Part shown: positions 11,816 to 35,882 of the stretch, one piece after another | Numbering within the stretch: the first letter of the stretch is position 1 | How the letters are laid out: every line of letters begins with the position of its first letter | Assembly: GCF_003387155.1 (NCBI RefSeq) | Contig: NZ_QUMT01000001.1 | Span: 1,677,858 to 1,741,857, forward strand | Length of the DNA: 64,000 nt | From: Roseateles depolymerans | GTDB taxonomy: Bacteria; Pseudomonadota; Gammaproteobacteria; Burkholderiales; Burkholderiaceae_C | Reading direction: 5' to 3' | Position numbers and translations under genes: made by a program | Notes under the pieces: model-generated | Databases searched by the model: none | The model's input: the letters and a program-made list of their open reading frames with translations, nothing else | What the model was told of the DNA's origin: nothing

Positions 11816-11890
11816 GGGCGGTTAGCTCAGCGGTAGAGCACTGCCTTCACACGGCAGGGGTCGCAGGTTCGAACCCTGCACCGCCCACCA
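11816..11890 (+). tRNA. tRNA-Val (anticodon CAC), copy 2
   Basis: It is the same as copy 1 except for one base in the D-loop (AGCGG instead of AGTGG). It has the same anticodon CAC and an encoded CCA. The two genes are separated by 104 bases and probably share one transcript that ends at the hairpin directly downstream. Confidence 0.97.
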
Positions 11891-11894
11891 AATG

Positions 11895-11930
11895 AAAAAG
11901 CACTTGGCAAAACTGCCAAGTGCTTTTTTA
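11895..11930 (+). terminator. Strong Rho-independent terminator after the tRNA pair
   Basis: GCACTTGGCA pairs with TGCCAAGTGC over an AAAC loop. The stem is flanked by A-runs before and seven Ts after, so it may also serve the minus-strand DUF3037 gene. Confidence 0.92.
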
Positions 11931-12008
11931 TCTTCGGCTGGACGTTCCTGGAGCTGCAAAGGTCACCGTGCGGGACAGGTGCATGGCGCCTCCAGGGTGG
12001 TCATCCTC

Positions 12009-12833
12009 TCAAGCCAGAGCGAATGCAGCGATTCGATCCTCATCCCGCTCGTCCACGAGTTGCACGTCCTCGGCCTGCAGCTCACGCTGAATCTCCGCAA
12101 ATGCTGCATAGCGCTTCGCATCTGCTTCCGGAGGCCGCGATACCGCAAACAGAACGTCTTGCGGCAGCAGGCGATGTCGGCGAAGCAGCTTCACCCGCTG
12201 AAGCCACGTACCGCCATGGTCGTAGATGCCCATTGGCTCCTTCTGGTCCAGATTGAATGGCTTGATGACCTTGGAGGTTCGCTCTCCATGCTGTTGAACC
12301 AGTGGGAATTTGACGTAGACGTCGTCATTGCCCACCCTCGCGGGCCGAAACGGATGAGGCAGCTCCAAGCTGCCCAGCAAGGTCCGAATGCGCCGTTCGA
12401 TGGCTTGCTCCACATATTCTGGGGAGGCGAAAGAACGGTCCACATAGTGGTCAAACTGCTTGGCGAGCTCCAAACCGGGGTCGTCCGTCAGCACGACCTT
12501 CGCTGCGCTGAAGCGAATAATGGCTTCCCGAGGATGGATCAAGCTGTCAAACACGTGCCTGACGTATTCCGCCTGCCCAGCTGCAGGCGCAGCGGCAATC
12601 ACGTCGGCAACCCTCTGAAGCTCGATCTTGATGACTTGCATGGCCCTGAGGTAGACGTCCTTGGGCAACTCATCAAAAAAGCTCGTGATCCGCTTGTACC
12701 GCCGCGTCTGGAGCTGAAATCCAAAGTATTTGGTATGGGGGCAAGTCAGCACCACTCCAACATTCGCAAACTCGCCGGTTTCGCTAAACGGTGTGAACTG
12801 AACCACGGCGTAGCGGCACGCAACTTTTTTCAT
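12009..12833 (-). CDS. DUF3037-family protein
   Basis: This 274-aa protein begins with the pattern of DUF3037 (CRYAVVQFTPFSETGEFANVGVVL), followed by a long helical, charged region. The molecular function of the family is unknown; members often sit beside HipA-like kinases, but no such gene is visible here. The ATG at 12833 has GGAGG 5 bases upstream; an upstream in-frame start would add 21 residues without a ribosome site. It lies alone, directly beyond the tRNA-Val pair on the opposite strand, which is consistent with acquired DNA. Confidence 0.7.
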   Translation of the reverse strand: MKKVACRYAVVQFTPFSETGEFANVGVVLTCPHTKYFGFQLQTRRYKRITSFFDELPKDVYLRAMQVIKIELQRVADVIAAAPAAGQAEYVRHVFDSLIHPREAIIRFSAAKVVLTDDPGLELAKQFDHYVDRSFASPEYVEQAIERRIRTLLGSLELPHPFRPARVGNDDVYVKFPLVQQHGERTSKVIKPFNLDQKEPMGIYDHGGTWLQRVKLLRRHRLLPQDVLFAVSRPPEADAKRYAAFAEIQRELQAEDVQLVDERDEDRIAAFALA

Positions 12834-13601
12834 ACCGTCCTCCAAAGTCCACTCTAGATAGGGGCGGGCAAGCCCTTGTTCACTGGGGCCTAACACCTCG
12901 ACGATTTGAACAATGGGCGCTGGATCGGGAATCAGCAGGGCAGTGGTGGGAAGTTCCCGGCCAGCATGAGGGGGTCATGCAAAGCCTCAGAAGGCAAGTT
13001 AGCTCCGCCATCTTACGGTCGCGAGACGGGCGGCACGCCGCCCAGAGTTGATGTTTCGATCCCGGAAGATTGCGGCTTTGAGTGTCTTGCTGCTGCAGTT
13101 CTGTGAGGTGTCGGTGCTGTGGTTCGTGTGGCTGCGTTGTGCGCCCGGACACAGACATCCGGTGCGCGCAGCGCGGGAAGTCGGCTCCTCCAATGTCCGC
13201 GACCACGGGGCTGTCCGATACTTCAGGCAAAAACATCAAATTTGTCTGATCTATCGGACGTTCACGCTGCTTTGCTTGCTCATTTCGGCGTCCACGGACA
13301 CCAAGTTCGGCAACATGAACGAGGTTCCGTGAACGGCCGTTATGCTGCGGTTACTGACCTTGGCTACGCGGACGCGAGCGCACGCTGACCGCGGCCAAGC
13401 GGTCAGCCGGTCCGATCAGCGTTGGGCGCGTGAATAGCAGCGGTACATTGATACCCGCCGTACGGCACGCGGTGTCAGTAGGTAACCGCCGATAAGTGCT
13501 TCTTTGGGACCCGGACTCACTATGCCGACCCCGTAAGGGCAATCCTTCCCGAGTCCGTATTTCTGCTGCGGCATCAATCACTGCGGCCCATTGGGTGTCC
13601 T
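12834..13601. other. Gene-poor stretch of 768 bases
   Basis: I see no convincing gene. Short open frames on both strands lack ribosome sites and recognisable domains. It should hold the promoter of the DUF3037 gene (near 12834-12900) and the transcription end of the carbamoyltransferase unit. One perfect hairpin is listed separately. Confidence 0.5.
13384..13407. repeat. Perfect 9-bp inverted repeat
   Basis: GCTGACCGC and GCGGTCAGC flank a 6-base loop, about 195 bases beyond the end of the carbamoyltransferase gene. There is no T-run on either side, so it is not a standard terminator; it may be part of a decayed repeat. Confidence 0.6.
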
Positions 13602-15566
13602 TCAATTTCTGTGGCGCCATTCGAGCCACCCTGCCGATGCGAGCGCGTACAATTCATCAGCCAAAGACGACGCAATTTTTCGGGCATGCTCAACCAACGT
13701 CTTTGCATCGATAAAATTTATCGCGTGGTTGGTGAGTAGATAAAAGCACTCCTCGCTGATCCCAATCGAAGTCGACGCCCGATACAAGCGGAATTCCTGT
13801 CCGTTGTGACCAACGACTCGCCCTACTGCGGTGCCGAGTCCCAGTCGGATTTCGGTAGGCGCCCATTTCGCCTCAGCCCATTTTGGGGCCCTTGTAATGA
13901 ATAGATCCTCTAGTACCAATGCGTCGATATCCGCGTTCTCAATAAAAAACCTTAAGGCCTCCTCTGGAGTCTCGACGATTGGGCCGTCTGGACCATTGAG
14001 AGAGGTGTTAGCGAGCACTGCGTATCCCGAGAGCTCCTCAAACTCGAGAAGAAGTTCCCTGAGATCAGGGTCTGTGGATAGGTCCAGCGTTTGAGCACGA
14101 GTCGAGTGATCTGGATGCCAAAGTACTGGCAATACTGACTGCAGCGCGGGCTTGACGCGATGAAGAAAGGTCATGAATGGACTTGGCGACGGTCCATCGA
14201 AGTATTCCGAGAAGCGCTCGGTAAGAACTATCGGTGCGACCGGACGCCAATGCTGCCGGCCCTTGATGGCGTTGAGTCGATCCTTGTTTTTCCCGAATAG
14301 AGGGGATGCAAGAAGGCTCCTGCCACCCAAGGCACGCGGACCGAACTCTGAACGGCCCGACCACCTTGCGACGATGCATCCAGATTGAAGAGCTCGCGCG
14401 ACGCGCGAGGTCGAGCACGGTTCTGCGTCGACAAAGGGGGCAAAAGCCGCTGACGCGCGGTACACGATAGAGCGAGAATAGCGAGGGCCCAACCTGTCAG
14501 TAAGAGTCCTCGCAGCTCTGAGGTCGAAGCCAAGCGAGGCTTGCCCATACATCGCACAGCCCACGGCAATGCCTGCATCACCAGGCGCACTTGGAACCGC
14601 CACATGCTCATACAGGCCAGATTCGGCGAGTCTACTATTGCAGTTGATGTTCAGAAACAGGCCGCCTGCAAGAGCCAACCGACTGGCCCCCGTCAAACGC
14701 TTAGCACGACGAGCATGGGCGAGTACGACCTCTTCAGTGGTGCGCTGAACTACAGCCGCGAATGCTGCAGACGCATCGAAATCGGAGGGCGGCCAGCAGA
14801 CTTTGGATTGCCACCCGTTCAGCCAATCGACGCGCTCGTCGGAGACGCGGCAGATATCCTCAACAGAGAGGCAATCCGACGGCACACCAAACGAAGCTAG
14901 TGCCATCAACTGCCCGTAGCAGTTTGGCTTCTGAAAGACCCACTGGGCAGCGTTGTCGTAGAGACTGGCAGGACTGAAAACGAAGCAGTCGGGCTCATTA
15001 TGCGCCATCACAAACTCACGTTCAACGAGTAGGTGTCGCCCATGCTGCCACTTGTAGATCGACAGACACTCTGTCCGAACGGGCTGAATTGCGCCTGAGC
15101 GCCCAAGCGAGGCAAGCAACTCGAGAAACGGCACGGCGTAGTCGTCGCCGTCGTGCGTCGTCGAACCGGCTAAGTCACAAACCAGGATTGCATAGTCATT
15201 CCCTTCAAGATAGGGGATAACTGAGTAGGCGTGCGCAAGATGATGCGAAATCGCCATATGCCGCGAATCATCCGCAGCAAATGCATCGAAGCCCGGCGAT
15301 ACAAGGTCTTTCCCGAAGCCGATGCCGCCAAGCGAAGCAGATTGGTGACTGCTGACGATTCGATCGACGTCGTCGATCGTCACGCCGGCTGCATTTAGCA
15401 CCTCTCGTATCGGCAAGCGCTCGGAAAGACTGGCCTGTCCGTCGTGTTTTCGGCGTGTGACTCGCTCTTGTTGGAGGGCGGAAACGATACAGCCGTCGAT
15501 TGCCACCGCACACGCAGAGTCGTGTCCTACGTGAATGCCGAGCGAGATGGATCTCTTCTTGCTCAC
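13602..15566 (-). CDS. O-carbamoyltransferase, NodU/CmcH/TobZ family
   Basis: This 654-aa enzyme of the NodU/CmcH family transfers a carbamoyl group from carbamoyl phosphate, via carbamoyl-AMP, to a hydroxyl on a natural product. The N-terminal Kae1-like domain opens with SLGIHVGHDSACAVAIDG and has the metal-binding ISHHLAHAYS motif and LAGGLFLNINCNSRL. The C-terminal domain has RSEFGPRALGGRSLLA, KGRQHWRPVAPIVL and the NTSLNGPDGPIVETPEEAL block. Length is normal for the family. Its ATG overlaps the oxygenase stop by four bases (ATGA), so the two are translationally coupled. The substrate is unknown; no polyketide, NRPS or aminoglycoside gene is nearby, which is unusual for such enzymes. Confidence 0.9.
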   Translation of the reverse strand: MSKKRSISLGIHVGHDSACAVAIDGCIVSALQQERVTRRKHDGQASLSERLPIREVLNAAGVTIDDVDRIVSSHQSASLGGIGFGKDLVSPGFDAFAADDSRHMAISHHLAHAYSVIPYLEGNDYAILVCDLAGSTTHDGDDYAVPFLELLASLGRSGAIQPVRTECLSIYKWQHGRHLLVEREFVMAHNEPDCFVFSPASLYDNAAQWVFQKPNCYGQLMALASFGVPSDCLSVEDICRVSDERVDWLNGWQSKVCWPPSDFDASAAFAAVVQRTTEEVVLAHARRAKRLTGASRLALAGGLFLNINCNSRLAESGLYEHVAVPSAPGDAGIAVGCAMYGQASLGFDLRAARTLTDRLGPRYSRSIVYRASAAFAPFVDAEPCSTSRVARALQSGCIVARWSGRSEFGPRALGGRSLLASPLFGKNKDRLNAIKGRQHWRPVAPIVLTERFSEYFDGPSPSPFMTFLHRVKPALQSVLPVLWHPDHSTRAQTLDLSTDPDLRELLLEFEELSGYAVLANTSLNGPDGPIVETPEEALRFFIENADIDALVLEDLFITRAPKWAEAKWAPTEIRLGLGTAVGRVVGHNGQEFRLYRASTSIGISEECFYLLTNHAINFIDAKTLVEHARKIASSLADELYALASAGWLEWRHRN

Positions 15567-16252
15567 TGCACCTGATTGGAGAAACCAACCGTCAAGATGC
15601 TGACGCGCTCTCCAGGCTTCATATCTTCGCGTGCGTGAACCACGCTTCCGGCATTCAGAACAACAACTTCGCCAGGGGCAAGCAAAATGCGCCTCGGAGA
15701 GACGTCGTCTTCATAGATTAGGAGATGCGACGGCTCAGCATCCACAGGATGCAGATGCTCCAACATTACGATCACATTGATTTCATAAACCTCTGTATCC
15801 ACATGTGGGTCGAGCCCATGTCCTTGGCCGTCGTAGTAGATATAACTCGCTACTCCAGTTGGCTCAACACCAGGATAAAGGTCTTGAACGAACCGCTTGA
15901 GATCGCGGTCCAGTGCAAACTGATCGGCAACCGTGCCACCGCATCCCAGCAAGTATCGATCGGTCGGCTTAGCGATCTCCCGGGTACACCGACTCTCCTC
16001 CTGCAGAGACGCCAGCACGATATCGGTTACGCAAGCCGGCCGACCGCGCCACATTGTGCCCTGCACACGCATGTCGCTGAGGCACTGGAGCACGGTTCTG
16101 AATGCCGCGGCGCTTGCCTCACTATGCGGCCTTGACCCACGCGGCGCGAGACCACCTGCCGCCATGCAAAGCAGTAGCTTGTAGTTTTCGAGCTCTTCTT
16201 GGGTCAGGCTTCTCTTAAGACTAGCGAACCGTTTTGCCAACTGCGCTTGCAT
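15563..16252 (-). CDS. Fe(II)/2-oxoglutarate-dependent oxygenase
   Basis: This 229-aa protein has the facial triad of 2-oxoglutarate dioxygenases in its C-terminal half: His150 and Asp152 (GLDPHVDTE), His206 (SVVHARE), and Arg216 (KPGERVSIL) as the likely 2-oxoglutarate ligand. The tyrosine-rich YIYYDGQ before the triad is also typical. It probably hydroxylates a substrate that the following carbamoyltransferase then carbamoylates, which is inference from coupling. I chose the ATG at 16252, with AAGGA 9 bases upstream; a TTG at 16282 would add 10 residues. Confidence 0.82.
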   Translation of the reverse strand: MQAQLAKRFASLKRSLTQEELENYKLLLCMAAGGLAPRGSRPHSEASAAAFRTVLQCLSDMRVQGTMWRGRPACVTDIVLASLQEESRCTREIAKPTDRYLLGCGGTVADQFALDRDLKRFVQDLYPGVEPTGVASYIYYDGQGHGLDPHVDTEVYEINVIVMLEHLHPVDAEPSHLLIYEDDVSPRRILLAPGEVVVLNAGSVVHAREDMKPGERVSILTVGFSNQVQ

Positions 16253-16357
16253 GCAGTGCCATCCTTGTCGAAGAAAGACCAACAGTTAACGAGAAAGAGG
16301 ACTTTTCGTTCAGACTCACGCAAGCCGCTCAGGCTCTAGCGAGGGCGCTGATGAGGC

Positions 16358-16639
16358 CTATTTCTTTCCAAGCCCCAGCTTCTTGGGGAGGTCGGCATAC
16401 GCCTTCTTCATCTTGATGGTTGAATGAACGGACTTGGGCTTCATAAACACGAGATCGCCATCGCCCTCTTCGTGTGCCTGTACAAGCTTGGTGTGGATGG
16501 CTGCAGACTCCACGATCTCGCTGAGCACCTGCTTCTCTTCCGGAGTCAGCGTCTTACTCATCTCTGCCAGCTTCTTGATGAGCGTAGGCGTCGCTGCTTC
16601 CAGCGCATCAAGGTTTTTGGGTTTCGCCGATGTTGCCAC
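16358..16639 (-). CDS. 93-aa small protein upstream of the oxygenase/carbamoyltransferase pair
   Basis: I do not recognise a family. The protein starts at a GTG with a very strong ribosome site (AAAGGAGG, 6 bases away), which argues for high expression. Residues 8-55 look helical and acidic (LTPEEKQVLSEIVESA), while residues 62-93 are basic and rich in Lys, Ser and Val and end in KKLGLGKK. There is no signal peptide and no cysteine. It is the first gene of a same-strand unit, 105 bases before the oxygenase. A helical leader plus a basic hydroxyl-bearing tail next to two tailoring enzymes could mean a substrate or precursor peptide; it could equally be an accessory protein. Confidence 0.65.
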   Translation of the reverse strand: MATSAKPKNLDALEAATPTLIKKLAEMSKTLTPEEKQVLSEIVESAAIHTKLVQAHEEGDGDLVFMKPKSVHSTIKMKKAYADLPKKLGLGKK

Positions 16640-16802
16640 TTAGTCCTCCTTTGTGTAACGCTCCGCGAAAGGAGCGCGATAAAATGCTAAACCTCGGTTG
16701 ACAGCGGCGCCAGCTGCTCGGTGAGCCATCAGGTAATGTACTGACGCGGTCGCGTGGACGAGCAGGTGGTAGAGCCAGCCCTATGATTGCATTGAGAATT
16801 TC

Positions 16803-17336
16803 ATGACAACGGACGCCAAGACCCCCGACGACTACGTGACGCTCGAATCGCAGACCCGTGCGCACGCTGGCGAGCTCTTCGAAGTGCTGCAGGACCTGGA
16901 GATTTACAAGCACATCTCCGACACCCCTCCTTTAACTTTGGAATCGTTTTCGAAGCGGCTCCAAGCGCTGGAAGTCGGAGGCTCACCTGACGGCACGGAG
17001 AAATGGCTAAACTGGGTCGTGCGCCACCGTGAAGGTCAGCTGCTCGGTTATGTCCAAGCCACGATTTACGAGCCCGCCTATGCGGATGTTGCGTACGTTC
17101 TCGCCAGCAAATTTTGGGGGCAGGACTTTGCGTACAAGGCAACCTTGCAGATGCTTTATTTGCTCCATGTTCAACATGCCGTGCAGACTGCCTACGCTGT
17201 CACCTGCTTGGATAACAACCGGTCGATGAGGCTGCTGGCTCGTCTAGGCTTCCAACGAATCGGACACGAGGACTATCCGGGCGAGGCACCGACTTCGGCT
17301 GAAGCAGTGTGGCGCAAATCCCTGACCACCAGATAG
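16803..17336 (+). CDS. GNAT-family N-acetyltransferase (RimJ/RimL-like)
   Basis: This 177-aa acyl-CoA-dependent acetyltransferase has a RimL-like fold order: an N-terminal arm (TLESQTRAHAGELFEVL), the strand GQLLGYVQATIY, AYVLASKFWGQDFAYKA in place of the acetyl-CoA loop region, and the late NNRSMRLLARLGFQRIG block typical of the family. It is divergent from the 93-aa protein gene, with 163 bases between for both promoters. It may belong to the same locus (possible self-resistance or tailoring), but this is inference. Confidence 0.8.
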   Translation: MTTDAKTPDDYVTLESQTRAHAGELFEVLQDLEIYKHISDTPPLTLESFSKRLQALEVGGSPDGTEKWLNWVVRHREGQLLGYVQATIYEPAYADVAYVLASKFWGQDFAYKATLQMLYLLHVQHAVQTAYAVTCLDNNRSMRLLARLGFQRIGHEDYPGEAPTSAEAVWRKSLTTR

Positions 17337-18181
17337 CCGAACGTGCGCCGGAGCCAGTGTTTGAGCGCTGCCTTATTCATTCGCACGCAGCGGAAGGCCG
17401 GCTCGATCGGTTGATGTTTATTCCTTGAAACAATAGACCATCGGTCCGCATTCCGCTTCCCCAAAATTGAGGACGTACGTGCGGCCTCGGAGTCGTTGTT
17501 TCGGCGACCGGCAGGTCTATCGCAGATTCCTCACGTCGAGCCTTCCTAGGTGCACCAATGATCGTGACCAGCAGGTACTTGAGCAAGCGGCCAAGTGCGG
17601 TGACTTCAAGATCGGGGTGCCGGGTCGCCCCTAATGCGCTGGAGAGCCGACCGAGGCAGATATCTCAATGTCGGTTTAGCATCTCAGTGCTCGATGCCGC
17701 GTACGACTGGCTACCCGGTGCTGTGAGCCCTCCCACGGGCCGTTCCGACCAGTCGGTCTGTGACGATGCGCGGGCGGAACCGGGCGTTGCTGAGAGCGTC
17801 GACAGCATGCTGTCGTCAACAAGGACAGCGGTCGCGGCGCCTGCGATCGCATTCGTCTGATTGGTCAGCACGCATGACAGTGCGGGCGACGGGATGCAAA
17901 GACCTGCTAGCAACCCTCACCGCAGCCGAAAGTCCGCTTCCAGCGGCCGCCGACGTTGGCCGTCTGAATGCGACCGACAGCAGTCAGCCTGAAACGTGCG
18001 GTGGGCTTCCAAGTCTGCGCTCGTTGCCGAAATGCCAGAACAACGCAGGCCGAAGGACCTGCTCAAGACCGACTGAAAAACGCACTTTGCTCCTCCAGCA
18101 ACCCAGGCTGGAAGCCCTTTGCGGGAGCGGCGAAGGTCGGCGCAGCACAATGCTCAAAGCGCCGCTGCATTGCCGTCTTCC
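17337..18181. other. Gene-poor stretch of 845 bases
   Basis: No credible coding region is visible on either strand. The part around 17890-18010 has recurring GGCCG and GACCG elements (for example CCGAAAGTCCGCTTCCAGCG, then GGCCGTCTGAATGCGACCG) that remind me of dispersed intergenic repeats in Burkholderiales. It may mark the right edge of the accessory segment that begins at the tRNA-Val pair. Confidence 0.4.
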
Positions 18182-19066
18182 GTGACACCCGCCCACTCGC
18201 CCTCTGCATCCTCACGAGCCCTCCACGGCCTGCCGCCGACCTTGTCCGCCTTGCTGCCGCGCCAGCTGTCTCGCGCCCTGCAGCCAGTGCCGCAGGGGCT
18301 GTTGCGCTTCACGCTTGGCGATGTCGCGATCGGATGGATTCACCCCATGCGGGTGCCTGCGCTGCAAGCGTGCTGGCCGGAATTGCAGCTCTCGGCCGGC
18401 CTGGCGCGCTGGGATGCGCCCGACATGGACATGGCGCAGCGCAGTGCACGGATCGCCGCCGTCGCTTTGGCCCTGCGGGAGCGGCAGGCCATCCCCGGCT
18501 GGCGGGATGAGGCTTTCGCCTGTGAGCATCCGGTCGCGGACCCATGCGCCGAGCGGGGGGAGCCGTTGTTTGCGCTCGAACGCGCCGCCTTCCGCTTCTT
18601 CGGCCTGATGAGCCGCGCCGTGCACATCAACGGCTTCCTCCCAGGCGCCCGTCTGCTGTGCGGACGACGCGCCCTCTCCAAGGCCACCGACCCCGGCCGA
18701 CTCGACAACCTGGCAGCCGGCGGTGTTCCCGTGGGCGAAGACTTCCTGGCCTGCGCGCAGCGGGAGCTGTGGGAAGAGGCCGGTGTCCCGATGGCCTTGA
18801 GCGCCTCGCTGAAGCCCCGTGGGCAACTCCGCAGCACGCGCATGACCCCGGAGGGTCTGCATGACGAGGTGCTGCATGTCTACAGCCTGGTGCTGCCGCC
18901 GGGCTTCGTCGCCAGCAACCGGGACGGAGAGGTGAGTGAGTTCCTGTCCCTGGACCTGGAAACACTGGCCCAGCGCCTCGCGCAGGACGAATTCAGCGTG
19001 GATGCCGCCGCCGTCACCGCATGGGGCTTGATGCACGACGAAAGGCGGGACGATCTCCTCGCCTGA
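18182..19066 (+). CDS. Nudix hydrolase with DUF4743-type N-terminal domain
   Basis: About 294 aa. The C-terminal half is a Nudix domain; the Nudix box appears as GGVPVGEDFLACAQRELWEEAGVP, matching GX5EX7REUXEEXG. The N-terminal 110 residues resemble the DUF4743 domain found in Nudix proteins related to thiamine pyrophosphokinase-like enzymes. It would cleave a nucleoside-diphosphate-linked substrate, not known here. The start is uncertain: I prefer GTG at 18182, though a TTG at 18119 is in frame and neither has a clear ribosome site. Confidence 0.82.
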   Translation: MTPAHSPSASSRALHGLPPTLSALLPRQLSRALQPVPQGLLRFTLGDVAIGWIHPMRVPALQACWPELQLSAGLARWDAPDMDMAQRSARIAAVALALRERQAIPGWRDEAFACEHPVADPCAERGEPLFALERAAFRFFGLMSRAVHINGFLPGARLLCGRRALSKATDPGRLDNLAAGGVPVGEDFLACAQRELWEEAGVPMALSASLKPRGQLRSTRMTPEGLHDEVLHVYSLVLPPGFVASNRDGEVSEFLSLDLETLAQRLAQDEFSVDAAAVTAWGLMHDERRDDLLA

Positions 19067-21871: not shown

Positions 21872-21881
21872 CCGGTCAGAG
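21866..21881. other. Palindrome spanning two convergent stop codons
   Basis: CTCTGACCGGTCAGAG is a perfect 16-base palindrome. It contains the TGA of ribE (21869-21871) and the TGA of the converging asparagine-synthetase-like gene (21876-21878 on minus). It could form a small hairpin at both mRNA ends; there is no T-run. Confidence 0.6.
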
Positions 21882-23609
21882 TCTGTAGTTTGGGCGGTGG
21901 CCCCTCAGCCACTGCTCCAGCATGATCAGGATCCAGACCATCTCGCCGTAGTAGCCGGGGTGTTCCCGCAGCCGCTGCGTCAGCAGGCTCTGGATGAAGT
22001 CCGCCCGCACGATGCCGCGCCCCGCCAGACTCCCCAGCGAATCGGCGGCCAGTGCCCCCAGCCCAGCATCCTTGATCGCCCAGACGCCAAACGGCAGGCC
22101 AAAGCCCTGCTTCTTCTTGGTGATGATCTCATCCGGCAAAAAGCCCTTGAGCGCCTCCTTGAAGAACCAGCGCAGCTGCAGGCCCTTGAGCTTGAACGAC
22201 GGCGGCAGCCGCTGCGAAAAGGCCAGCAGCCCGTCATCCAGCATCGGGAACCCGACCTGCATGCCGGCCAGGCCAGTGGTGCCCACCACCTTGGGCAGGT
22301 CGGTATCCGCCAGCGTGTAGCGCCAGTCGAAGGCCAGCATCCGGTCCACCAGATGCGCCCCCTGGGTGGTGCCCCACACCTGCCGCTGCTGCTTCTGCGG
22401 CGCCAGCGTGTCCACCCGGCGCAGGAAGTCCTGCTCCAGCACCTGGGCCTGGCCGAGGCGAGTCAGCAGGTTGTAGCTCTGCAGGCGGTCGGGCATGGGC
22501 ACCCGGGCCTGCTCGATGTAGCTCGCACCCTTCTTCAGCAGCGGCAGACGGCCCAGCGGCGAGCCGAGCACCGGCTCCAGCAGGCCGCCGCGCAGCGGTC
22601 CCGGCACCCGGTCCCACCAGCTGAAGACGGTCTGCTTGGCGTAGCGGGTGTTGCCGCCGAAGAGCTCGTCGCCGCCGTCCCCGGCCAGCAGACGCCGCAC
22701 GCCGTCTTCATGCGCCACCCGGGCGCAGTAGTAGGCGGGCAGGGCGGAGCTGTTGCCAAACGGCTGGTCGTAATGGGTGGCCACCTTGGCGATGCCATCC
22801 ACCAGGTCCCGCGGGGTCACGTAGTACTCGTGATGGCGGCATCCGAAATGCTGCGCGGCGATCCGGGCGAAGGCCATCTCGTCGTAGCCTTCGGCCTCGA
22901 AGCCGATGGAATAGGTGTCCGCCGGGCGACCTGCTACACGGCTGATCATGCCGGCCACGGTGGAACTGTCGGTGCCGCCGCTCAGGAAGCAGGCGGCATC
23001 GGTGCCATCGAGCTGCCGGCGCACGGCGTTTTCCAGCAGGCCCAGGAATTCCTGCTTGAGGTGATCCAGGTCGCGCACCGGCTCGGGATGGAAGCTGGGC
23101 ACCCAGTAGGGCTGCACCCGCAGCTGCCCGCGCTCGAAGATCGCCACATGGCCGGGCGGCAGGCGATAGACATCCCGGAAGATGGTGCGCGGGGCCGGAA
23201 TGACATGGAAATACAGGTAATCGAACAGCGCCTGCGGATCGAGCTCCGCAACCGCCTTGCCGCCGTGTTCATCCGTCACCTCGGCCAGCGCATCGGCCCG
23301 CGTCGCGAAGTGCAGGTGCTGCCCCACGATGCGATAGCACAGCGGCTCGATGCCAAAGCGGTCGGTGGCCAGCACGGTACGGCCATCGGCCTGTCGCCAG
23401 CCCACCGAAAAGCGTCCGCCCACCTGGGCCAGTGCATGGACGGGGTCGGACTGCATCAGCAGCGCCTGCCACGGACGGGCCAGCGCGGCCGACCGGTCCG
23501 CCGCGCCCGGACCGTCCAGTCCCGGCACTGCCATGCCATCCACGGCGCCGGTCACCGACGCCGGAAAACGCGGCTGACCGGTGCAGAAAAACGTGTCGCG
23601 AACTGACAT
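21876..23609 (-). CDS. Asparagine-synthetase-like amidotransferase lacking the glutaminase cysteine
   Basis: This 577-aa protein has a class II glutaminase-like N-terminal domain (residues about 1-190) and an ATP-binding synthetase domain (about 200-550) with the pyrophosphatase loop FLSGGTDSSTVAGM, GDGGDELFGG and the late KKKQGFGLPFGVW block. Active family members begin Met-Cys-Gly so that Cys is the N-terminal nucleophile. Here the start is MSVRDTFFCTG, so the glutaminase should be inactive and the enzyme would use free ammonia or another nucleophile. It borders polysaccharide genes, where such proteins are common. A longer frame upstream has no family match. Confidence 0.82.
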   Translation of the reverse strand: MSVRDTFFCTGQPRFPASVTGAVDGMAVPGLDGPGAADRSAALARPWQALLMQSDPVHALAQVGGRFSVGWRQADGRTVLATDRFGIEPLCYRIVGQHLHFATRADALAEVTDEHGGKAVAELDPQALFDYLYFHVIPAPRTIFRDVYRLPPGHVAIFERGQLRVQPYWVPSFHPEPVRDLDHLKQEFLGLLENAVRRQLDGTDAACFLSGGTDSSTVAGMISRVAGRPADTYSIGFEAEGYDEMAFARIAAQHFGCRHHEYYVTPRDLVDGIAKVATHYDQPFGNSSALPAYYCARVAHEDGVRRLLAGDGGDELFGGNTRYAKQTVFSWWDRVPGPLRGGLLEPVLGSPLGRLPLLKKGASYIEQARVPMPDRLQSYNLLTRLGQAQVLEQDFLRRVDTLAPQKQQRQVWGTTQGAHLVDRMLAFDWRYTLADTDLPKVVGTTGLAGMQVGFPMLDDGLLAFSQRLPPSFKLKGLQLRWFFKEALKGFLPDEIITKKKQGFGLPFGVWAIKDAGLGALAADSLGSLAGRGIVRADFIQSLLTQRLREHPGYYGEMVWILIMLEQWLRGHRPNYRL

Positions 23610-23779
23610 GGGCCTCCCGAAGTGCGCGGCGATTATCAGCGTCCCCTGGCCGCGGCGTCCCGTAAACCGGTCGATTCCACCCATCTTGGGGGCGTTCCAG
23701 CCGGGGCGTTCCCCCGAATCAGGGCGGGGTCGGCCCCACAATCCCGGCTTTCGCGCCGCAGTCTGGCGCGCGGAGTGTT

Positions 23780-24871
23780 GTGTTGCGGGTCCATTGGTTG
23801 CCTCATGCCTGGAACCCGGCCTATGCCGGGGTGCGTCTGCGCTGCCTGATTCCTCAAGGTGAACTGGCCCGGCAGGGTGTGCGCTCCCGTCTGGTGAAGG
23901 ACGGGCAGCCGGTGCCCCGCGAGGGGACGGTGGTGGTGCAGGCGAAGTGGCTGCTGGACGCTGGCAGCCCGGATGCACTGCGGCAACGCAGCCAGCAACT
24001 GCAGCAAGCCCGCGACGCCGGCGCCGTGCTGGTGCTGGACAGCTTCGACAACTATTTCCTCAATGAATCCGGCGATGCGGCCCGGGCGCTGCTGCTGCAG
24101 GCCTATCGGGAAGCGCTGCCGCTGTTCAAGGCCTTCACCGTGTCCTCGCCCGGCTTGCAACCGCTGCTGCAGGCGGAACTGCCGCCCGGCACCCCGGTGC
24201 ATGTGGTGGGGGATCCGGTGGAGACGCCGGAGGCGCTTCATGCCTATGAATCGTGGTGGCGCCGGCATCATCCGGGTCGCTGGTCCGGCCACCGGCAGGC
24301 CCGCCAGGAACTGCGCGAGCATCGCCGGGCCCGTCAGCAGGCGCGTCAGCTGCTGTGGTTCGGCAACCATGGCAGTGCCTACGCGGCGGGCGGCATGGCT
24401 GAACTCGACCGCATCATTCCGCTGCTCAACAAGGTGGCCGTGGACCAGCCGCTTCGCCTCACGGTCGTCAGCAATTCCGAGCAGCGTTACCGCGAGGTGC
24501 TTGCGCCCGCCACTTTCGATCACCGCTATCGGCCCTGGGACCGGCTGCATTTCCTGCGACTGCTGGGCGAGCATGACCTGGTGCTGCTGCCGGCCCGTCT
24601 CACCGCTTTCACCATCGCGAAAAGCAACAACCGTATGCTGCTGGCGCTGGCGCAGGGCGTGCCGGTGATGACCGACCCGTTGCCGGACTACCTGCCCTGG
24701 CAGGCGTTCTGTGCCATGGACGATTGGGACCACCTGGCACGGCATGTGCGTGACCCCGGCCCACTGGCCACGCTGGCCAGACAGGCCATGCCCGCCATTG
24801 CGCGGGACTATTCGACCGCAGCCATTGCCCGGCAATGGCGCGACACCTTGACCGGAATTTCCTCCCGATGA
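23780..24871 (+). CDS. Putative glycosyltransferase (GT4-like)
   Basis: This 363-aa protein has a two-domain look typical of GT-B enzymes: an N-terminal half starting LRVHWLPHAWNPAYAG, and a C-terminal half with LLWFGNHGSAYAAGGM, RLTVVSNS and KSNNRMLLALAQGVPVM, the last being like the nucleotide-sugar-binding region. Sequence similarity to known GT4 enzymes is weak. Start is GTG at 23780 with GGAG just upstream. It overlaps the WbsX gene by ATGA, so they form an operon. Confidence 0.65.
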   Translation: MLRVHWLPHAWNPAYAGVRLRCLIPQGELARQGVRSRLVKDGQPVPREGTVVVQAKWLLDAGSPDALRQRSQQLQQARDAGAVLVLDSFDNYFLNESGDAARALLLQAYREALPLFKAFTVSSPGLQPLLQAELPPGTPVHVVGDPVETPEALHAYESWWRRHHPGRWSGHRQARQELREHRRARQQARQLLWFGNHGSAYAAGGMAELDRIIPLLNKVAVDQPLRLTVVSNSEQRYREVLAPATFDHRYRPWDRLHFLRLLGEHDLVLLPARLTAFTIAKSNNRMLLALAQGVPVMTDPLPDYLPWQAFCAMDDWDHLARHVRDPGPLATLARQAMPAIARDYSTAAIARQWRDTLTGISSR

Positions 24872-25992
24872 ATGCGAACCCGGATCCGCACGAGCCCCTG
24901 CTGATCTCGATCGTCCTGCCGCAATTCCATCCGATTCCGGAGAACGACGCCTGGTGGGGCACCGGCTTCACCGAATGGCGCAACGTGGCCAAGGCGCGCC
25001 CGCTCTTCAAGGGCCATCATCAGCCGCAGTTGCCGGCCGACCTGGGCTTCTACGACCTGCGCCTGCCCCAGGCCCGCGCCGCGCAGGCCGCGCTGGCCCG
25101 GCAATACGGCATTGGCGGCTTCTGCTACTACCACTACTGGTTCAACGGCCGCCGTCTGCTGGAGCAGCCAGTGGAGGCCGTGCGCAGCAGTGGCGAGCCG
25201 GACTTCCCCTACTGCCTGGCCTGGGCCAACGAGAACTGGACGCGCGCCTGGAATGGCCGGGACCGGGAAGTGCTGATGGCCCAGCAGTACAGCGCCGAGG
25301 ACGACGAGGCCCATCTGCGCACGCTGCTGCCGCATTTCCGGGACCCGCGCTACATCCGCATCGACGGCAAACCGCTCTTCATCGTCTACAAGGCCGACCA
25401 GCTCCCGGACCCGCAGGCCACCTTCGGCCGTTGGCGCGAGATCGCCCGGCGCGAGGGCGTGGGCGAGTTGACGCTGGCGCAGTTCGAATGGAGCGGCGCC
25501 GGCTCAGGTACTCACATCCGGGACGTGGGCCTGGACCTGTCGATCGAATTCGCGCCGGACTGGCGGCAACTGGGGGGGCGGCATTTCACCGGCTGGAAGT
25601 CGAAGCTGGCGATGCAACTGGGGCTGCTGCCCAAGGCCTATGGCCAGCATCACTTCTACGACTACCAGCGCATGGTGGACCGGGTGCTGGCCAAGCCGGT
25701 GCCGGACTATCCGCTGCTGCGCTGCGTCAGCCCGGGCTTTGACAACAGCGCCCGCCGTCCGCAGGGGGCGACCATCCTGATGAACAACACGCCGCAGGCC
25801 TACCAGCGCTGGCTGGAAGCGGCATTGGACTGGACCCGGCAGCACCAGCCGGCGCAGCGCCAGGTGGTGTTCATCAATGCCTGGAATGAATGGGCCGAAG
25901 GCAACCACCTGGAGCCGGACCTGCGCGATGGGCATGCCTATTTGCAGGCCACCTTGAACGCTCTGGAGCGGGCTCGCAGCGCCATTGGCTGA
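24868..25992 (+). CDS. WbsX-family protein (GH99-like), surface polysaccharide
   Basis: This 374-aa protein matches the WbsX family found in O-antigen and capsule loci: IVLPQFHPIPENDAWWGTGFTEW, the YGIGGFCYYHYWFNGRRLLE block, CLAWANENWTRAWNG and FINAWNEWAEGNHLEPD. The family is related to GH99 endo-mannosidases, but its members in polysaccharide loci are usually regarded as glycan-assembly proteins. It has no signal peptide. Its ATG overlaps the stop of the preceding glycosyltransferase gene. Confidence 0.87.
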   Translation: MNANPDPHEPLLISIVLPQFHPIPENDAWWGTGFTEWRNVAKARPLFKGHHQPQLPADLGFYDLRLPQARAAQAALARQYGIGGFCYYHYWFNGRRLLEQPVEAVRSSGEPDFPYCLAWANENWTRAWNGRDREVLMAQQYSAEDDEAHLRTLLPHFRDPRYIRIDGKPLFIVYKADQLPDPQATFGRWREIARREGVGELTLAQFEWSGAGSGTHIRDVGLDLSIEFAPDWRQLGGRHFTGWKSKLAMQLGLLPKAYGQHHFYDYQRMVDRVLAKPVPDYPLLRCVSPGFDNSARRPQGATILMNNTPQAYQRWLEAALDWTRQHQPAQRQVVFINAWNEWAEGNHLEPDLRDGHAYLQATLNALERARSAIG

Positions 25993-26093
25993 TCGCGAAG
26001 AGGCGCGGCACCGCGCCGGCGGGGGCGACGCCCTCAACGTCCCTCATCGCCCCTCAGCGTCCGTCCGTGTTCCTCAGTGGCTCTCAGCGTCTT

Positions 26094-27449
26094 TCAGCGC
26101 GCCACCCACGGCAGGCAAGCCTGCTGATGACGAGCCACCGAGCCTCGCAGCGCTGACAACACCTCCTCGGTCCGCCGCAGATCGTCCTGCACGGACGCCG
26201 CGCCTTCAATCGCTGCTCGCCAGTAGGCATGCAGGGCCGCTTCATCCGCACAGCTGTGCAGCACGCCCTGGTCCCGCAGCAGCCGGTAGACCGGATAGGA
26301 CGGATAGGTGGTGTTCCAGCCTTCCTGGATGGTCAGCGGCTTGCCCAGCCCCAGCGGTTCCAGCACGTTGTGGTCCACGCCGACATGGGCGACGCTGGCG
26401 GCGGCATAGAAGTCGCGCAGCTCACCCACGGTGTCCAGCACCAGGCAGTTGACCGACTCGGGCAGTGCGGCATCGGGGACAGCGGAGCGACGCACCCAGC
26501 GCAGGTCCTGCGCCTCCACCTGGGCCAGCAGCGCCTGCATGCGTTCCCGGTTCTCGGGGTGGCGGGGCGCCAGGATCAGCAAGGCCTGCGGATGCTGCTG
26601 CCGCAGCCGCTGGAACGCCCCCAGCACCGCCTGCTGTTCGGCCAGCTCGGTCACACAGCCGCCCACGACCGTCGGCCGGCCGGCCTCGATCAGCGCACCC
26701 AGCAGGCCTGGGCTGCGCGCCTGCGACACCTGCCAATGCGGACGCTGCATCGCATCGAACTTCATGTTGCCGGTGACCACCAGCCGGTCCTCGGCGGCGC
26801 CGCGCCCGGCCAGGATCTGCGCCGTGGCCGCATCCTGGACGCACAGCACATCCAGCGCCCGCAGGAAGTCGGCCTCCAGCAACTGACGCTCGACCTGGTC
26901 CAGCCGTGCAGGGGGCGCATAGTGGTAGAGCCAGCCATTGAGCAGCAGGGTGGACGCGCCGCAGCGCCGCGCCTCGCGCAGGAAGGCATAGGAAAAGCGG
27001 CAGGGCGCGTCCGACGGCAGGCAGGGAATTTCCGCCAGCGCCAGCACCTGCGGCGGCAGTTGCGCCGCGAGCTTGCGCGCATCCAGGCTGTGGCCGCGCG
27101 TCAGGCACACGACGGCGCCGGGCAGTCGCGCGAGGTAAGCCTCCTGATAGTGGGCATGTTCGGTGATCAGCACCGGCCGCAGATCGGGCCGCTGGGCGAC
27201 CAGCCATTCCAGCATCGGCGCCACGGCATTGAGTTCACCGATGGTGGTGACGTACAGCCACAGGGCAGGCCCCCGCGCCTGGGGATCGGACAAGGCAAAC
27301 ACCCCCTGGGTGTTGTTGCCGCGCCAGTCGCTGAGCCGCTCCAGCATCCGGAAGGCGGTCCAGCGCAGCGCCTCGCCCAGTCCGGCGCTGCGGCGCGCCG
27401 GCGTGCGAGGAGGGGACACAGGGGCCAGGTCGGTCAGGGCGTCAGGCAT
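26094..27449 (-). CDS. Glycosyltransferase of the Kdo-transferase (WaaA) family
   Basis: This 451-aa protein follows the WaaA plan: N-terminal LWLYVTTIGELNAVAPMLEWL, central VTGNMKFDAMQRP, then LLILAPRHPENRERMQALL, and near the C-terminus the AAASVAHVGVDHNVLEPLGLGKP region. The true WaaA motif there is GGS-x-x-x-x-GGHN-x-LEP, here altered to HVGVDHNVLEP. It therefore probably moves a different sugar or a Kdo-like acid onto a surface glycan, not onto lipid A. It overlaps the flippase gene by eight bases. Confidence 0.78.
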   Translation of the reverse strand: MPDALTDLAPVSPPRTPARRSAGLGEALRWTAFRMLERLSDWRGNNTQGVFALSDPQARGPALWLYVTTIGELNAVAPMLEWLVAQRPDLRPVLITEHAHYQEAYLARLPGAVVCLTRGHSLDARKLAAQLPPQVLALAEIPCLPSDAPCRFSYAFLREARRCGASTLLLNGWLYHYAPPARLDQVERQLLEADFLRALDVLCVQDAATAQILAGRGAAEDRLVVTGNMKFDAMQRPHWQVSQARSPGLLGALIEAGRPTVVGGCVTELAEQQAVLGAFQRLRQQHPQALLILAPRHPENRERMQALLAQVEAQDLRWVRRSAVPDAALPESVNCLVLDTVGELRDFYAAASVAHVGVDHNVLEPLGLGKPLTIQEGWNTTYPSYPVYRLLRDQGVLHSCADEAALHAYWRAAIEGAASVQDDLRRTEEVLSALRGSVARHQQACLPWVAR

Positions 27450-28896
27450 GGCGACTCCGCAAGTGACTCAGCGCACGGCGCACTTCCCCCATCACCGGAT
27501 GCTGCAGCCAGAGCGCGCAGGCCATCCAGGCGGTGGTGCCGGCCAGGATGCAGACCAACAGGCGCGGCAGTAGCGGCAGGCTCCATTGCGCGCAGGCCAG
27601 TTCCGCCAGCGCCAGGCCCGCACAGCAGCCCAGCGCCAGCTTGGCGCTGGCCCAGCTGGGCCCGAAGAGCTCACGCGGCCGGGCTTGCAGCACGGTGGTG
27701 AGGTGATGGGTGTAGAGCCCCGTCTGCACCAGATTGCCGATCAGGAACACGGCGGCCACCGCCTTGAGGCTCCAGAACGACGCCACCAGCACGCAGGCCA
27801 GGTGCAGCGGTCCATACCAGAGCGCCACGGTGAGCCGCCGCCGGACGTTGCCGGTGGCCGCCAGGGCGTTGGGGGCCAGCACGGTCAGGGCATAGGGCAT
27901 GGCGGAGATCGCCAGCAAGGTGGCCAGCGGGGCGGCGTCCACCCATTGCGGGCCAAAGAGCAGGGCCAGCACGTCGCGCGACAGCAGCGCCACGCCCCCG
28001 AAGAACGGCCAGGCCACGCCGCTGTAGATGGCGGTGCCCTTGGCATAGGGGGCGATCAGGCTGTGTCCGGCGCGATGGTCTGCCGCAAAGGCCGGTGTGG
28101 CCACCCGCAGCACGGCGGAGCTGACGGTGGTGGCCAGCAGGTCGATCAGGCCGGTGGCCCGGCTGAACAGACCCAGCGAGGTGAAGCCGAACTGCTTGCC
28201 GATGATCAGCTCATGCCCGTTGCGCGAGCCCGATTCCACCAGCCGCGACGCGGTGAACATCGCGCCGAAGCGCAGTTGCCGTCCGGCGCCGCGCAGCCTC
28301 GGCCACATCAGCGCTTCGCGCGGTCGCAGCCACACGAGGATCAGCACCTGCATCGCAATGCCGGCCACCGGGCCCCAGGCCAGGCTGAGGGCGCCGTAGC
28401 CGTGCCAGGCCAGGCCAATGCTGGTGGCCGCATTGGCCAGGTTGGCACTGACCTGCACCACGCAGACGGTGTGGAAGGCCATCTCCCGGTTCAGCAGCGC
28501 AAAGGACGGCGAGGCCAGCGGCAGCATCACGAAGTTCAGGCACAGCACCAGCAGCAGGTCGGCCAGCAGCGGCTCGTGGTAGTAGGCCGCCAGCAGATGC
28601 CGGCCGAGGAATATCGTCAGCGCCAGGCCCCAGGCCATCATCAGCGTGATGGTGAAGGCGCTGCGCAGCTTGTCGCGGTCCAGCTCCCGTTCCTGGATCA
28701 GGTATTCCGAGACGCCGAAGTCCCGCAGGATGGACGCCAGGTTGGTCACCACGGCGCACAGCGAATAGACCCCCACCTGCGTGGGCGTCAGCAGGCGGGC
28801 CAGGATCATCGTGGTGGGCACGGTGATCAGCAGGCTCAGGTAGCGCTCGGCAAAGGACCAGGCCAGGGCGCCGCGGACGGACTTGGCCTGTGTCAT
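27442..28896 (-). CDS. Oligosaccharide flippase, MOP superfamily (Wzx-like)
   Basis: This 484-aa integral membrane protein with about 12-14 hydrophobic segments should translocate lipid-linked polysaccharide repeat units across the inner membrane. Characteristic family stretches are RGALAWSFAERYLSLLI at the start, LLTPTQVGVYSLCAVV, and the FTSLGLFSRATGLIDL region in the middle. The gene overlaps both neighbours by 4-8 bases and so belongs to the same transcript. Confidence 0.87.
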   Translation of the reverse strand: MTQAKSVRGALAWSFAERYLSLLITVPTTMILARLLTPTQVGVYSLCAVVTNLASILRDFGVSEYLIQERELDRDKLRSAFTITLMMAWGLALTIFLGRHLLAAYYHEPLLADLLLVLCLNFVMLPLASPSFALLNREMAFHTVCVVQVSANLANAATSIGLAWHGYGALSLAWGPVAGIAMQVLILVWLRPREALMWPRLRGAGRQLRFGAMFTASRLVESGSRNGHELIIGKQFGFTSLGLFSRATGLIDLLATTVSSAVLRVATPAFAADHRAGHSLIAPYAKGTAIYSGVAWPFFGGVALLSRDVLALLFGPQWVDAAPLATLLAISAMPYALTVLAPNALAATGNVRRRLTVALWYGPLHLACVLVASFWSLKAVAAVFLIGNLVQTGLYTHHLTTVLQARPRELFGPSWASAKLALGCCAGLALAELACAQWSLPLLPRLLVCILAGTTAWMACALWLQHPVMGEVRRALSHLRSRHA

Positions 28897-30074
28897 GAAG
28901 TCGAGGCCTGCGTAGTGGGGGCGGCGGTGGCCGGCGAGGCTGCGGCGGTCGTGGCGGTCGGGGCCGTTGGGCCGGCCGTGCCCGCGTTCGTGCCCACGTC
29001 CGTACTCGAATCCGTGGCCGGCTGGCCGGTCGCCCCGGCTTCACCGCGCCGGGCCAGCGCCCGATGCAGCGACTGGACCCAGCCCCAGCGATAACAGGTG
29101 CCGTGGTAGACCGGCCGGGCGGTGCTGGTCCAGCGGGTGTGCCACTCCATCACCTTGCCGTAGAACTCGATGCGGCGCACCGGTCCGCCGGCGGCGGCGT
29201 CCTTGAACAGGTCCTCGAACTGCTGCTGGCGCATCAGGGTGGAGGGAGAGACGGCCTTGTGGGCTTCGTCGTACGCGGTCTTGAGGATGACGATGCGGTC
29301 GCCGGAGAGGATGCACAGATCCATCGCCACCACCTCGTCGTTGAAGCGGTACTGGTACAGACGCGCCCGGCCCAGCCGGCAGAAGTTCTGCAGCATGCTC
29401 AGGTAGAACGCATATTGCGGGTGACCGGGCGCGATGGCCGTGCCCTCGTTGCCTTTCCATCCGCTGGCTTCGAGCCGGCCGTAGTGGGCCAGCGCTGGGG
29501 CCACGTCCTCGGGGAGGGTGAGGCAATCCAGCCGGGTCTGAATGCCGGAGGTCTCCAGCTTCTTCTGCTGCTTGCGGATGTTCTGGCGCAGGTTCTTGCC
29601 GCGGGCCTCCCAGTAGGCGTCGAAGGAGCCTTCGATGTCGACCCACGCGGTGTCGATGTAGTCCTGGCCGCGCCAGTGCGGCGTGTCGGCAGGGCGCGGG
29701 TGGAAGAGGCTGTCGATCTGCGTGAGGCCCACGGCCAGCGTCAGGCCGGGCAGGGCGCGGGTCAGCTCGCCCGCCAGCGGTGCCAGCGGAGCGCCCGCTT
29801 CACTGAGCCATGCGCCGAGCGGCAGTTGGGAAGGCTGGAAGGTGGTCCACTGACCGCGACGGCCCGGCGTCAGGATCGCCGCCGCCGTCGGGGCCTGGAC
29901 CGGTCCGCGCAGGGCCACCAGCTCCCGGCCGGTGCCGAAGGCGGACAGCAAGGGCTGCACAAAGGCGCTCTCCAGAAACGGCAGCCCGGCCACGCGGGCC
30001 TGCAAGGCATCCCAGGCGGCGGCATGGGCGGCAAATGCGTCGGCGGTGGGCAGGGGGTGAATCGTCCAGGTCAT
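28893..30074 (-). CDS. FemAB/CelD-type GNAT acyltransferase
   Basis: This 393-aa protein has the BioF2-like GNAT domain common in exopolysaccharide loci (core about 150-310: RGKNLRQNIRKQQKKLETSG, YRFNDEVVAMDLCILSGDRIVILKTAYDE and FYGKVMEWHTRW). It probably adds an acyl or aminoacyl group to a polysaccharide precursor. The last 50 residues are a low-complexity Ala/Thr/Pro tail. It overlaps both neighbouring genes by four bases. Confidence 0.8.
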   Translation of the reverse strand: MTWTIHPLPTADAFAAHAAAWDALQARVAGLPFLESAFVQPLLSAFGTGRELVALRGPVQAPTAAAILTPGRRGQWTTFQPSQLPLGAWLSEAGAPLAPLAGELTRALPGLTLAVGLTQIDSLFHPRPADTPHWRGQDYIDTAWVDIEGSFDAYWEARGKNLRQNIRKQQKKLETSGIQTRLDCLTLPEDVAPALAHYGRLEASGWKGNEGTAIAPGHPQYAFYLSMLQNFCRLGRARLYQYRFNDEVVAMDLCILSGDRIVILKTAYDEAHKAVSPSTLMRQQQFEDLFKDAAAGGPVRRIEFYGKVMEWHTRWTSTARPVYHGTCYRWGWVQSLHRALARRGEAGATGQPATDSSTDVGTNAGTAGPTAPTATTAAASPATAAPTTQASTS

Positions 30075-31381: not shown

Positions 31382-31397
31382 GAGCGGGTCCCTGGCG

Positions 31398-32639: not shown

Positions 32640-32649
32640 ACGGTGCGGG

Positions 32650-33564: not shown

Positions 33565-33576
33565 GCAGGTCTCCAT

Positions 33577-35492: not shown

Positions 35493-35509
35493 GGCCGGTC
35501 AGTCGCCGA

Positions 35510-35761
35510 TCAGGCGGACAGCTTGCCGTTCAGGAAATCCGTCAGCGCACCCACCGTGGCGAAGGTGGAACCGTCGATCTCGTCATCGTCCACGACGATG
35601 CCGAACTGTTCCTCCAGGGCGGTGATCAGGCTGACGACGGCCATGGAATCGAGCTCCGGCAATGCGCCCAGCAGCGCCGTGTCCGGCGTGAAGGCCTTGG
35701 CACGCCCCTCCAGGCTCAGGACGTCGTCCAGGATGTCCAGCAGATGTTCTTGTGTGTTCAT
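35510..35761 (-). CDS. Acyl carrier protein, exosortase-associated
   Basis: This 83-aa acidic helical protein has the phosphopantetheine attachment Ser in ELDSMAVVSLI. It opens the minus-strand unit that continues with the two hydrolases and is divergent from the acyl-CoA ligase gene, its likely loading enzyme. The start at 35761 (MNTQEHLLDIL) gives the normal length. Confidence 0.9.
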   Translation of the reverse strand: MNTQEHLLDILDDVLSLEGRAKAFTPDTALLGALPELDSMAVVSLITALEEQFGIVVDDDEIDGSTFATVGALTDFLNGKLSA

Positions 35762-35882
35762 GTCGGGCGGAATCTTACCCGTCGGCCCCCGGGCGCACGC
35801 CCGCCCAGCGCCCCCCCATCCCAAGGGGAGGCCCCCAGGGAGGTGAAATCTTTCCGGGGGGCTGCATGAGATACTTTTTTCC
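35762..35882. promoter_or_regulatory. Divergent promoter region between ACP and acyl-CoA ligase genes
   Basis: These 121 bases separate two divergent units of the same pathway, so both promoters must lie here. GATACT just before the ligase ATG resembles a -10 element but is too close to allow much leader. Runs of C and G (for example at 35810-35840) could pair. No operator can be named. Confidence 0.35.

Follow-up and report, generated by a model that had tools for sequence, protein, structure and literature searches.

A small protein, an oxygenase and a carbamoyltransferase encoded as one unit in Roseateles depolymerans, a candidate pathway for a modified peptide

In the current study, we asked what is modified by two enzymes of Roseateles depolymerans, a 2-oxoglutarate (2OG)-type oxygenase and a NodU/CmcH-type carbamoyltransferase (CT), whose genes directly follow that of a small protein. 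The stretch of DNA analyzed (64,000 nucleotides; contig NZ_QUMT01000001.1, positions 1,677,858 to 1,741,857) is referred to as the window, and its own coordinates are used throughout. The three genes form a consecutive unit on the minus strand, with a GNAT acetyltransferase gene running divergently from it, and all four lie within a low-GC insert. A GTG-start open reading frame (ORF; 16358..16639, minus strand) encodes the 93-aa small protein, the probable substrate or precursor, and 5 nt before its GTG a ribosome-binding site, AAAGGAGG (16645..16652, minus strand), was read from the sequence. The oxygenase gene (15563..16282, minus strand) encodes a 2OG-Fe(II)-type enzyme of 239 aa from a TTG start or 229 aa from an ATG at 16252, the latter seeming the likelier start. 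Its stop overlaps by four bases (GTGA) the start of the CT gene (13602..15566, minus strand; 654 aa), which was assigned from Pfam and solved relatives. The layout given in the original prediction, a 93-aa protein with a ribosome site ahead of an oxygenase whose stop overlaps the CT start, was confirmed from the sequence. Our preferred answer is that the unit probably constitutes a pathway resembling those of ribosomally synthesized and post-translationally modified peptides (RiPPs), in which the small protein would be the substrate of both enzymes and become hydroxylated and carbamoylated.

A counterpart of the unit on a Metabacillus plasmid

When 72,556 plasmid records were searched by tblastn with the oxygenase, four matches were obtained, one on plasmid pB218 of Metabacillus sp. 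B2-18 (Bacillota) and three, at 31% identity, on Streptomyces plasmids. The closest was that on pB218 (41% identity over 85%, E 2e-39), which is annotated as a 2OG-Fe(II) oxygenase. On pB218, the gene of a 94-aa protein is followed after a gap of 62 bases by the oxygenase gene, after two further bases by a CT gene (653 aa, spanning the start of the plasmid record), and then by major facilitator superfamily (MFS) and GNAT genes. Gene order and all four proteins are conserved between these distant bacteria, with overall identities of 26% for the small protein, 38% for the oxygenase and 35% for the CT, and with a GNAT match of 35% over 147 residues (E 2e-31). The pB218 GNAT gene lies further downstream and on the same strand as the unit, whereas that of the window is divergent. 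The annotation splits the MFS gene into two pieces that overlap in different frames (L007:253-1507), and the gene is perhaps not intact.

Both of the loci that carry a full-length close oxygenase thus contain the three genes and, nearby, a related GNAT gene, which agrees with the earlier suggestion that the GNAT gene may belong to the unit; homologues of the enzymes without the small gene were found at neither (0 of 2), the small gene and the CT gene being present in both. That the small gene is inherited together with both enzymes in the two close loci is one reason for favoring a modified peptide, as a gene-encoded candidate precursor adjoins the enzymes at the same position in each, a precursor role that we infer. 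It could be argued that unrelated genes have simply come to lie together in a tRNA island, since the site is a tRNA-Val hot spot, occupied by other inserts in two of the four sister genomes opened. Such a chance neighborhood is scarcely credible and already contradicted, because the order of small protein, oxygenase and CT, together with the GNAT gene, recurs on pB218, where all four homologues occur together and three are in the same order.

Compared as a single pair, the two small proteins gave a BLASTP match of 32% over 73 residues (E 8e-10), a score reached by none of 5000 shuffles. The Metabacillus protein found only itself in the plasmid collection. Between the Metabacillus small gene and oxygenase gene (L004:7849-7910) lies a strong 14-pair hairpin (z -5.5, reached by 0 of 200 shuffles), which would be consistent with the small protein being made in excess of the enzymes and, for that reason, fits a modified-peptide pathway.

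The small protein and its conserved tail

Identity between the two small proteins is distributed unevenly, with 12/33 residues identical in segment 53-86, 11/40 in 13-52, and 1/12 and 0/8 at the ends. The proposed conservation of the tail was thus borne out in Metabacillus (12/33 in 53-86). Tail residues 67-84 of the window protein (K-P-K-S-V-H-S-T-I-K-M-K-K-A-Y-A-D-L) are partly conserved there, and both proteins share the pattern K-P-x-S-x-H-x3-K-x-K-x4-D-L; the conserved residues include K67, P68, S70, H72, K76, K78, D83 and L84. The original prediction had described an acidic front and a basic Lys/Ser-rich tail. The charge split does exist in the window protein (7 positive and 11 negative charges in the front, 9 and 1 in the tail), but the tail holds only two serines, and the split is weaker in Metabacillus (10 and 9 in the front, 5 and 3 in the tail). 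No family in Pfam or in further family libraries matched the small protein over the cut-off, the best being SieB (E 0.066). The idea that it is homologous to the N-terminus of the oxygenase was dropped after comparison.

From these features we infer a pathway in which the 93-aa protein would be the genetically encoded substrate, its probably helical N-terminal part would provide recognition, and the modification site would lie in the conserved basic tail KPxSxHx3KxKx4DL. The two enzymes would act in turn, a leader may be released, and the GNAT enzyme would acetylate the product or the released fragment, most simply for self-protection. The MFS protein of Metabacillus would export the product; the window insert is without an MFS gene. 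The GNAT enzyme of the window (16803..17336, plus strand; PF13302, E 2.3e-15) possibly serves in self-protection or tailoring, of which self-protection is suggested by likeness to resistance acetyltransferases (weak matches). As to the claim that the small protein is itself the substrate, the conserved unit and conserved tail are best explained by a modified peptide, and the substrate role would follow from this.

The small protein might instead stay intact once modified and function within the cell, not as a precursor. EF-P is a protein that works in the cell in intact modified form. A length of 93-94 aa with a conserved front and a basic tail would suit such a role, as would the lack of any recognized protease or exporter in the window insert, of which 15 ORFs were scanned (the scope of all statements on the insert below). 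The mobile and very rare distribution of the unit would be unusual for a housekeeping modification, as would the MFS and GNAT genes that follow it in Metabacillus, and we consider this explanation improbable.

The two enzymes and their relatives

The oxygenase has only a sub-threshold Pfam match (PF13640, E 0.045), and its iron-binding triad HxD...H is present (H160-V-D162, H216). When five oxygenases including that of the window were compared, HxD and HxR were kept in all five, and all ten pairs scored beyond 500 shuffles. At the site where a basic residue would bind 2OG, ten residues past the distal His, the enzymes of the window and of one Streptomyces have R and that of Metabacillus has K, but Glutamicibacter has E and the other Streptomyces S. 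An AlphaFold2 model of the oxygenase, made with no relatives supplied, was unusable (pLDDT 36.7).

Three loci of distant oxygenases were opened, in Glutamicibacter (L009) and Streptomyces (L005 and L006), a third Streptomyces match (H4) being left out. At each of the three, an adjoining protein has a sub-threshold match to TIGR04267, the aKG-HExxH-type peptide beta-hydroxylase family (E 0.0035, 2.6e-5 and 3.3e-5). That distant relatives adjoin HExxH-type proteins and short peptides is a further reason for favoring a modified peptide. On Glutamicibacter nicotianae pGnpA106 (L009:5473-9496), a 40-aa peptide, a short 2OG oxygenase, an HExxH-type protein, a methyltransferase and an MFS protein are encoded in a row, possibly a small RiPP cluster. 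On a plasmid of Streptomyces sp. NBC_01244 (L005:3912-6420), a 52-aa peptide with the tandem repeat LTRRLDHSVPDG, which looks like a two-core precursor, is encoded beside an HExxH-type protein and a fusion of TPR and 2OG oxygenase domains.

The same relatives bear on the idea that the substrate is a nucleic acid, the oxygenase making a hydroxymethyl base and the CT carbamoylating it. A CT acting on 5-hydroxymethylcytosine in DNA and RNA provides a precedent in the accessible part of PMC8670742, and binding to nucleic acid is conceivable for a small protein that is basic. However, the oxygenase had no match in phage records and no relative in viral contigs, where it was searched by pattern and all four queries tried gave none; its distant relatives adjoin short peptides or HExxH-type proteins; and no base methyltransferase was recognized in the insert. 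We therefore regard this explanation as very improbable.

The CT is assigned by Pfam (PF16861, E 1.9e-50; PF02543, E 8.4e-22), and its solved relatives include GdmN, the novobiocin CT and TobZ, with which it has the two-domain CT architecture in common; its HHxxH and FGPR regions align with GdmN. The substrates of GdmN, the novobiocin CT and TobZ are small molecules, namely polyketide, aminocoumarin or aminoglycoside scaffolds. On this ground, the small protein might be an accessory, a carrier or partner, while oxygenase and CT act on a bound or delivered small molecule such as an amino acid or a sugar; the product would then be an O-carbamoyl hydroxy compound, detoxified by the GNAT enzyme. 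GdmN-type CTs, too, can have PqqD-looking tails, and of ten further plasmid records that carry a GNAT relative, the two opened lack the set of small protein, oxygenase and CT, one relative standing beside DUF1990 genes and the other beside an MFS gene. Against a carrier, the insert holds no recognized gene that would produce or activate a small substrate, and the tail of the small protein keeps several polar, modifiable residues and not one attachment site. A carrier role, product included, appears unlikely, although it is the most serious of the alternatives. The earlier statement that no polyketide synthase (PKS) or nonribosomal peptide synthetase (NRPS) genes lie nearby held when 12 of the window's 20 ORFs of at least 450 aa were scanned with Pfam, the other eight overlapping these on the opposite strand.

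With Metabacillus set aside, the plasmid CT that best matches that of the window belongs to Piscinibacter gummiphilus (32.6%), and the Metabacillus CT, too, matches this one best among the others (40%, E 4e-120). That this nearest further plasmid CT sits in a cluster like std, the RiPP cluster described in the next section, also argues for a modified peptide. The Piscinibacter locus (NZ_CP136338.1; L032:4044-12120) is of RiPP type and encodes a CT-YcaO fusion (1112 aa) with a PqqD-looking stretch, seen by eye, between CT and YcaO, as well as TfuA, a DUF692 enzyme, DUF6445, a GNAT protein and a 57-aa peptide that contains SNK and ends in GLSNKARQKPW. It resembles our unit in its near CT, short peptide and GNAT gene, and differs in the fusion of CT to YcaO, the DUF692 enzyme, TfuA and DUF6445; its GNAT protein is not close to that of the window, nor its DUF6445 protein to the window oxygenase. 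In a first tree of 17 rows, the window, Metabacillus and Piscinibacter CTs grouped together (support 99/99); both Nonomuraea CTs were excluded from the trees because the filter gave no ORF. A clade of RiPP-associated CTs only was dropped as a claim, since it dissolves once two CTs are added to the tree. The three-CT grouping was neither rejected (p-AU 0.146) nor shown in the enlarged tree, and a set of four rows that includes the CT of genome G269 has support of 99/98.

The CT also carries a C-terminal extension of about 94 residues (13602..13886, minus strand) that is possibly PqqD-like or like a RiPP recognition element (RRE); fusions of RREs to PF02543 carbamoyltransferases are reported in the accessible part of PMC12710340. 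Similarity between the window and Metabacillus tails was not above that of shuffles (428 of 1000 and 2172 of 5000 reached it), and Foldseek of the tail returned nothing under E 1. The PqqD-looking tail as proof of peptide binding was dropped, similar tails being found in CTs of other contexts and that of R. etli being like GdmN. On Deinococcus radiodurans pCP1 (L043:1-2617), a radical SAM protein, a CT with a long C-terminal extension and a TldD/PmbA protein are encoded adjacently, possibly another peptide-modifying set.

Several observations weigh against a modified peptide. Only two loci are known for the three-gene unit, and because a search of the whole plasmid collection with the window small protein misses the Metabacillus homologue at E 0.1, homology of the small proteins rests on position and pairwise score. 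The small protein shows no evident core or cleavage site, identity being 12/33 in the tail and 11/40 in the front, and among the insert ORFs no protease, exporter or RiPP class-defining enzyme was recognized. The gap between small gene and oxygenase gene in the window holds no hairpin beyond shuffles (z -0.94, 35/200). PHROG matches of the oxygenases are labeled ferrochelatase (window E 0.026, Metabacillus E 2.8e-4), and the 42-aa ORF translated at the second Streptomyces locus (L006) has no repeat. The tree enlarged by two CTs joins the window CT, with weak support (82/80), to the G269 CT, whose locus is, by eye, of glycosyltransferase type. PqqD-looking tails of about 110 residues occur, again by eye, in CTs of other contexts (L040, L035), and the R. 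etli CT tail matches the C-terminus of GdmN (E 0.0014).

Known systems, origin and meaning of the unit

Two known systems are close to the proposed modified peptide. In std of Streptomyces thermodiastaticus, as described in the accessible part of PMC13174530, the NodU-like CT StdF carbamoylates a lysine of the precursor, and a multinuclear non-heme iron oxygenase (MNIO) then hydroxylates the lysine. Std resembles our unit in that a ribosomal precursor, a NodU-like CT and an iron oxygenase are directed at one conserved short motif (StdA, StdF, StdDE), in a lysine within the precursor motif and in an MFS gene, on our side present in Metabacillus only. In the same text, std differs in that its hydroxylase is an MNIO (DUF692) and not a 2OG enzyme, in having YcaO-TfuA, in the fusion of its CT to an S8/S53 peptidase and in its precursor motif SNKEWQE, which is absent from the window small protein. 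YcaO-TfuA and MNIO were not recognized among the insert ORFs, and the small protein is without an SNK motif. In crocagin biosynthesis of Chondromyces (accessible part of PMC10070186), a short precursor (CgnA) is likewise combined with a 2OG-dependent oxygenase (CgnC) and a carbamoyltransferase (CgnI). That pathway differs, as far as this text describes it, in the peptide-binding proteins CgnB and CgnE, the hydrolase CgnD and the methyltransferase CgnL, none of which was recognized in the insert (CgnB and CgnE being judged without direct sequence comparison), and in its core Ile-Tyr-Trp, absent from the window small protein, which is without Trp. The insert has no large unassigned protein except DUF3037. 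The three-gene unit itself was not described in the literature searched, on CTs in RiPPs and more widely, most subscription papers lying outside reach.

The unit is therefore a variant on the combination of precursor, iron oxygenase and CT already present in crocagin and std, and not a wholly new kind; the original prediction of a new type of modified peptide was too strong in view of what the accessible parts of both sources describe. Its proposed chemistry, hydroxylation followed by carbamoylation of the new hydroxyl, survives as one option and not as the sole one, StdF carbamoylating a lysine amine. By analogy, lysine N-carbamoylation would be at least as likely as O-carbamoylation of a new hydroxyl, and we slightly favor it because of the StdF precedent and the three conserved lysines, an argument that is suggestive but not decisive. 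More tentatively, and at somewhat less than even chances, the unit may represent a new ribosomal-peptide class made by a 2OG hydroxylase and a CT alone, with the KPxSxHx3KxK tail modified, self-protection by the GNAT enzyme and spread by mobile DNA between the window's host, whose DnaQ passes the proteobacterial model TIGR01406 (dnaQ_proteo), and a relative of Bacillus, the product then being an O-carbamoyl hydroxy residue or a hydroxylated homocitrulline.

The three-gene unit arrived by horizontal insertion at a tRNA-Val hot spot. The insert (~6.3 kb, 11893..18209, no strand) extends from a tRNA-Val (cac) gene (11816..11890, plus strand) to a NUDIX gene, and in sliding windows its GC content is 0.53-0.62 relative to 0.63-0.70 in the flanks. 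No match to it was found at the same place in any of the four sister genomes opened, the flanks of which align as far as the tRNA and again from about the NUDIX gene. The flanks are separated by only about 0.55 and 0.17 kb in two of the genomes and by other DNA of about 2.5 and 7.7 kb in the remaining two, indicating that the insert was gained at a hot spot. Judged by eye from its ORFs, this other DNA is an IrrE/PIN-type insert (L028) in one case and resembles type VI secretion genes (L030) in the other. Only short chance matches to the tRNA end were found inside the insert or at its far side. Of the 15 ORFs scanned, five were recognized (the three-gene unit, GNAT and DUF3037), and the other ten had no Pfam match at E 0.01. 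The DUF3037 gene (12009-12896) adjoins the tRNA and has no visible tie to the unit. Outside the insert lie a polysaccharide-type region (21876-37592) with an XrtA/PEP-CTERM-type asparagine-synthase-like protein, a polysaccharide export/biosynthesis protein, glycosyltransferases and an AMP-binding enzyme (35883-37592), and a 3084-aa GH94-type protein (54569-63823).

The distribution of the unit is narrow. Samples of the order (1/300), phylum (1/398) and family (1/399) yielded the oxygenase from no genome but that of the window. The small protein was found in 1/16 genomes of the genus, as a profile from alignment A2 in 1/243 of the class, and at E 0.01 in 2/300 of the order, namely its own genome and G154; the G154 match (E 0.0059, inside a 305-aa frame) was taken as chance. 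The genome samples for the two proteins partly overlap. Searches of a genome contig collection with the oxygenase and alignment A1 gave no relative, a poor negative as the patterns were few or weak.

The unit is probably a small mobile RiPP-like biosynthetic cassette. CTs are called exceedingly rare in RiPP biosynthesis in the accessible part of PMC13174530, where two cases, crocagin and std, are counted. If our reading is true, the unit would be a third RiPP case with a CT, and one that makes do with very few enzymes. Peptide modification would become tied to an oxygenase family that no Pfam or NCBIfam model matches over its cut-off, and the unit would offer a direct test system for peptide recognition by NodU-type CTs and for their preference between a hydroxyl and a lysine amine.

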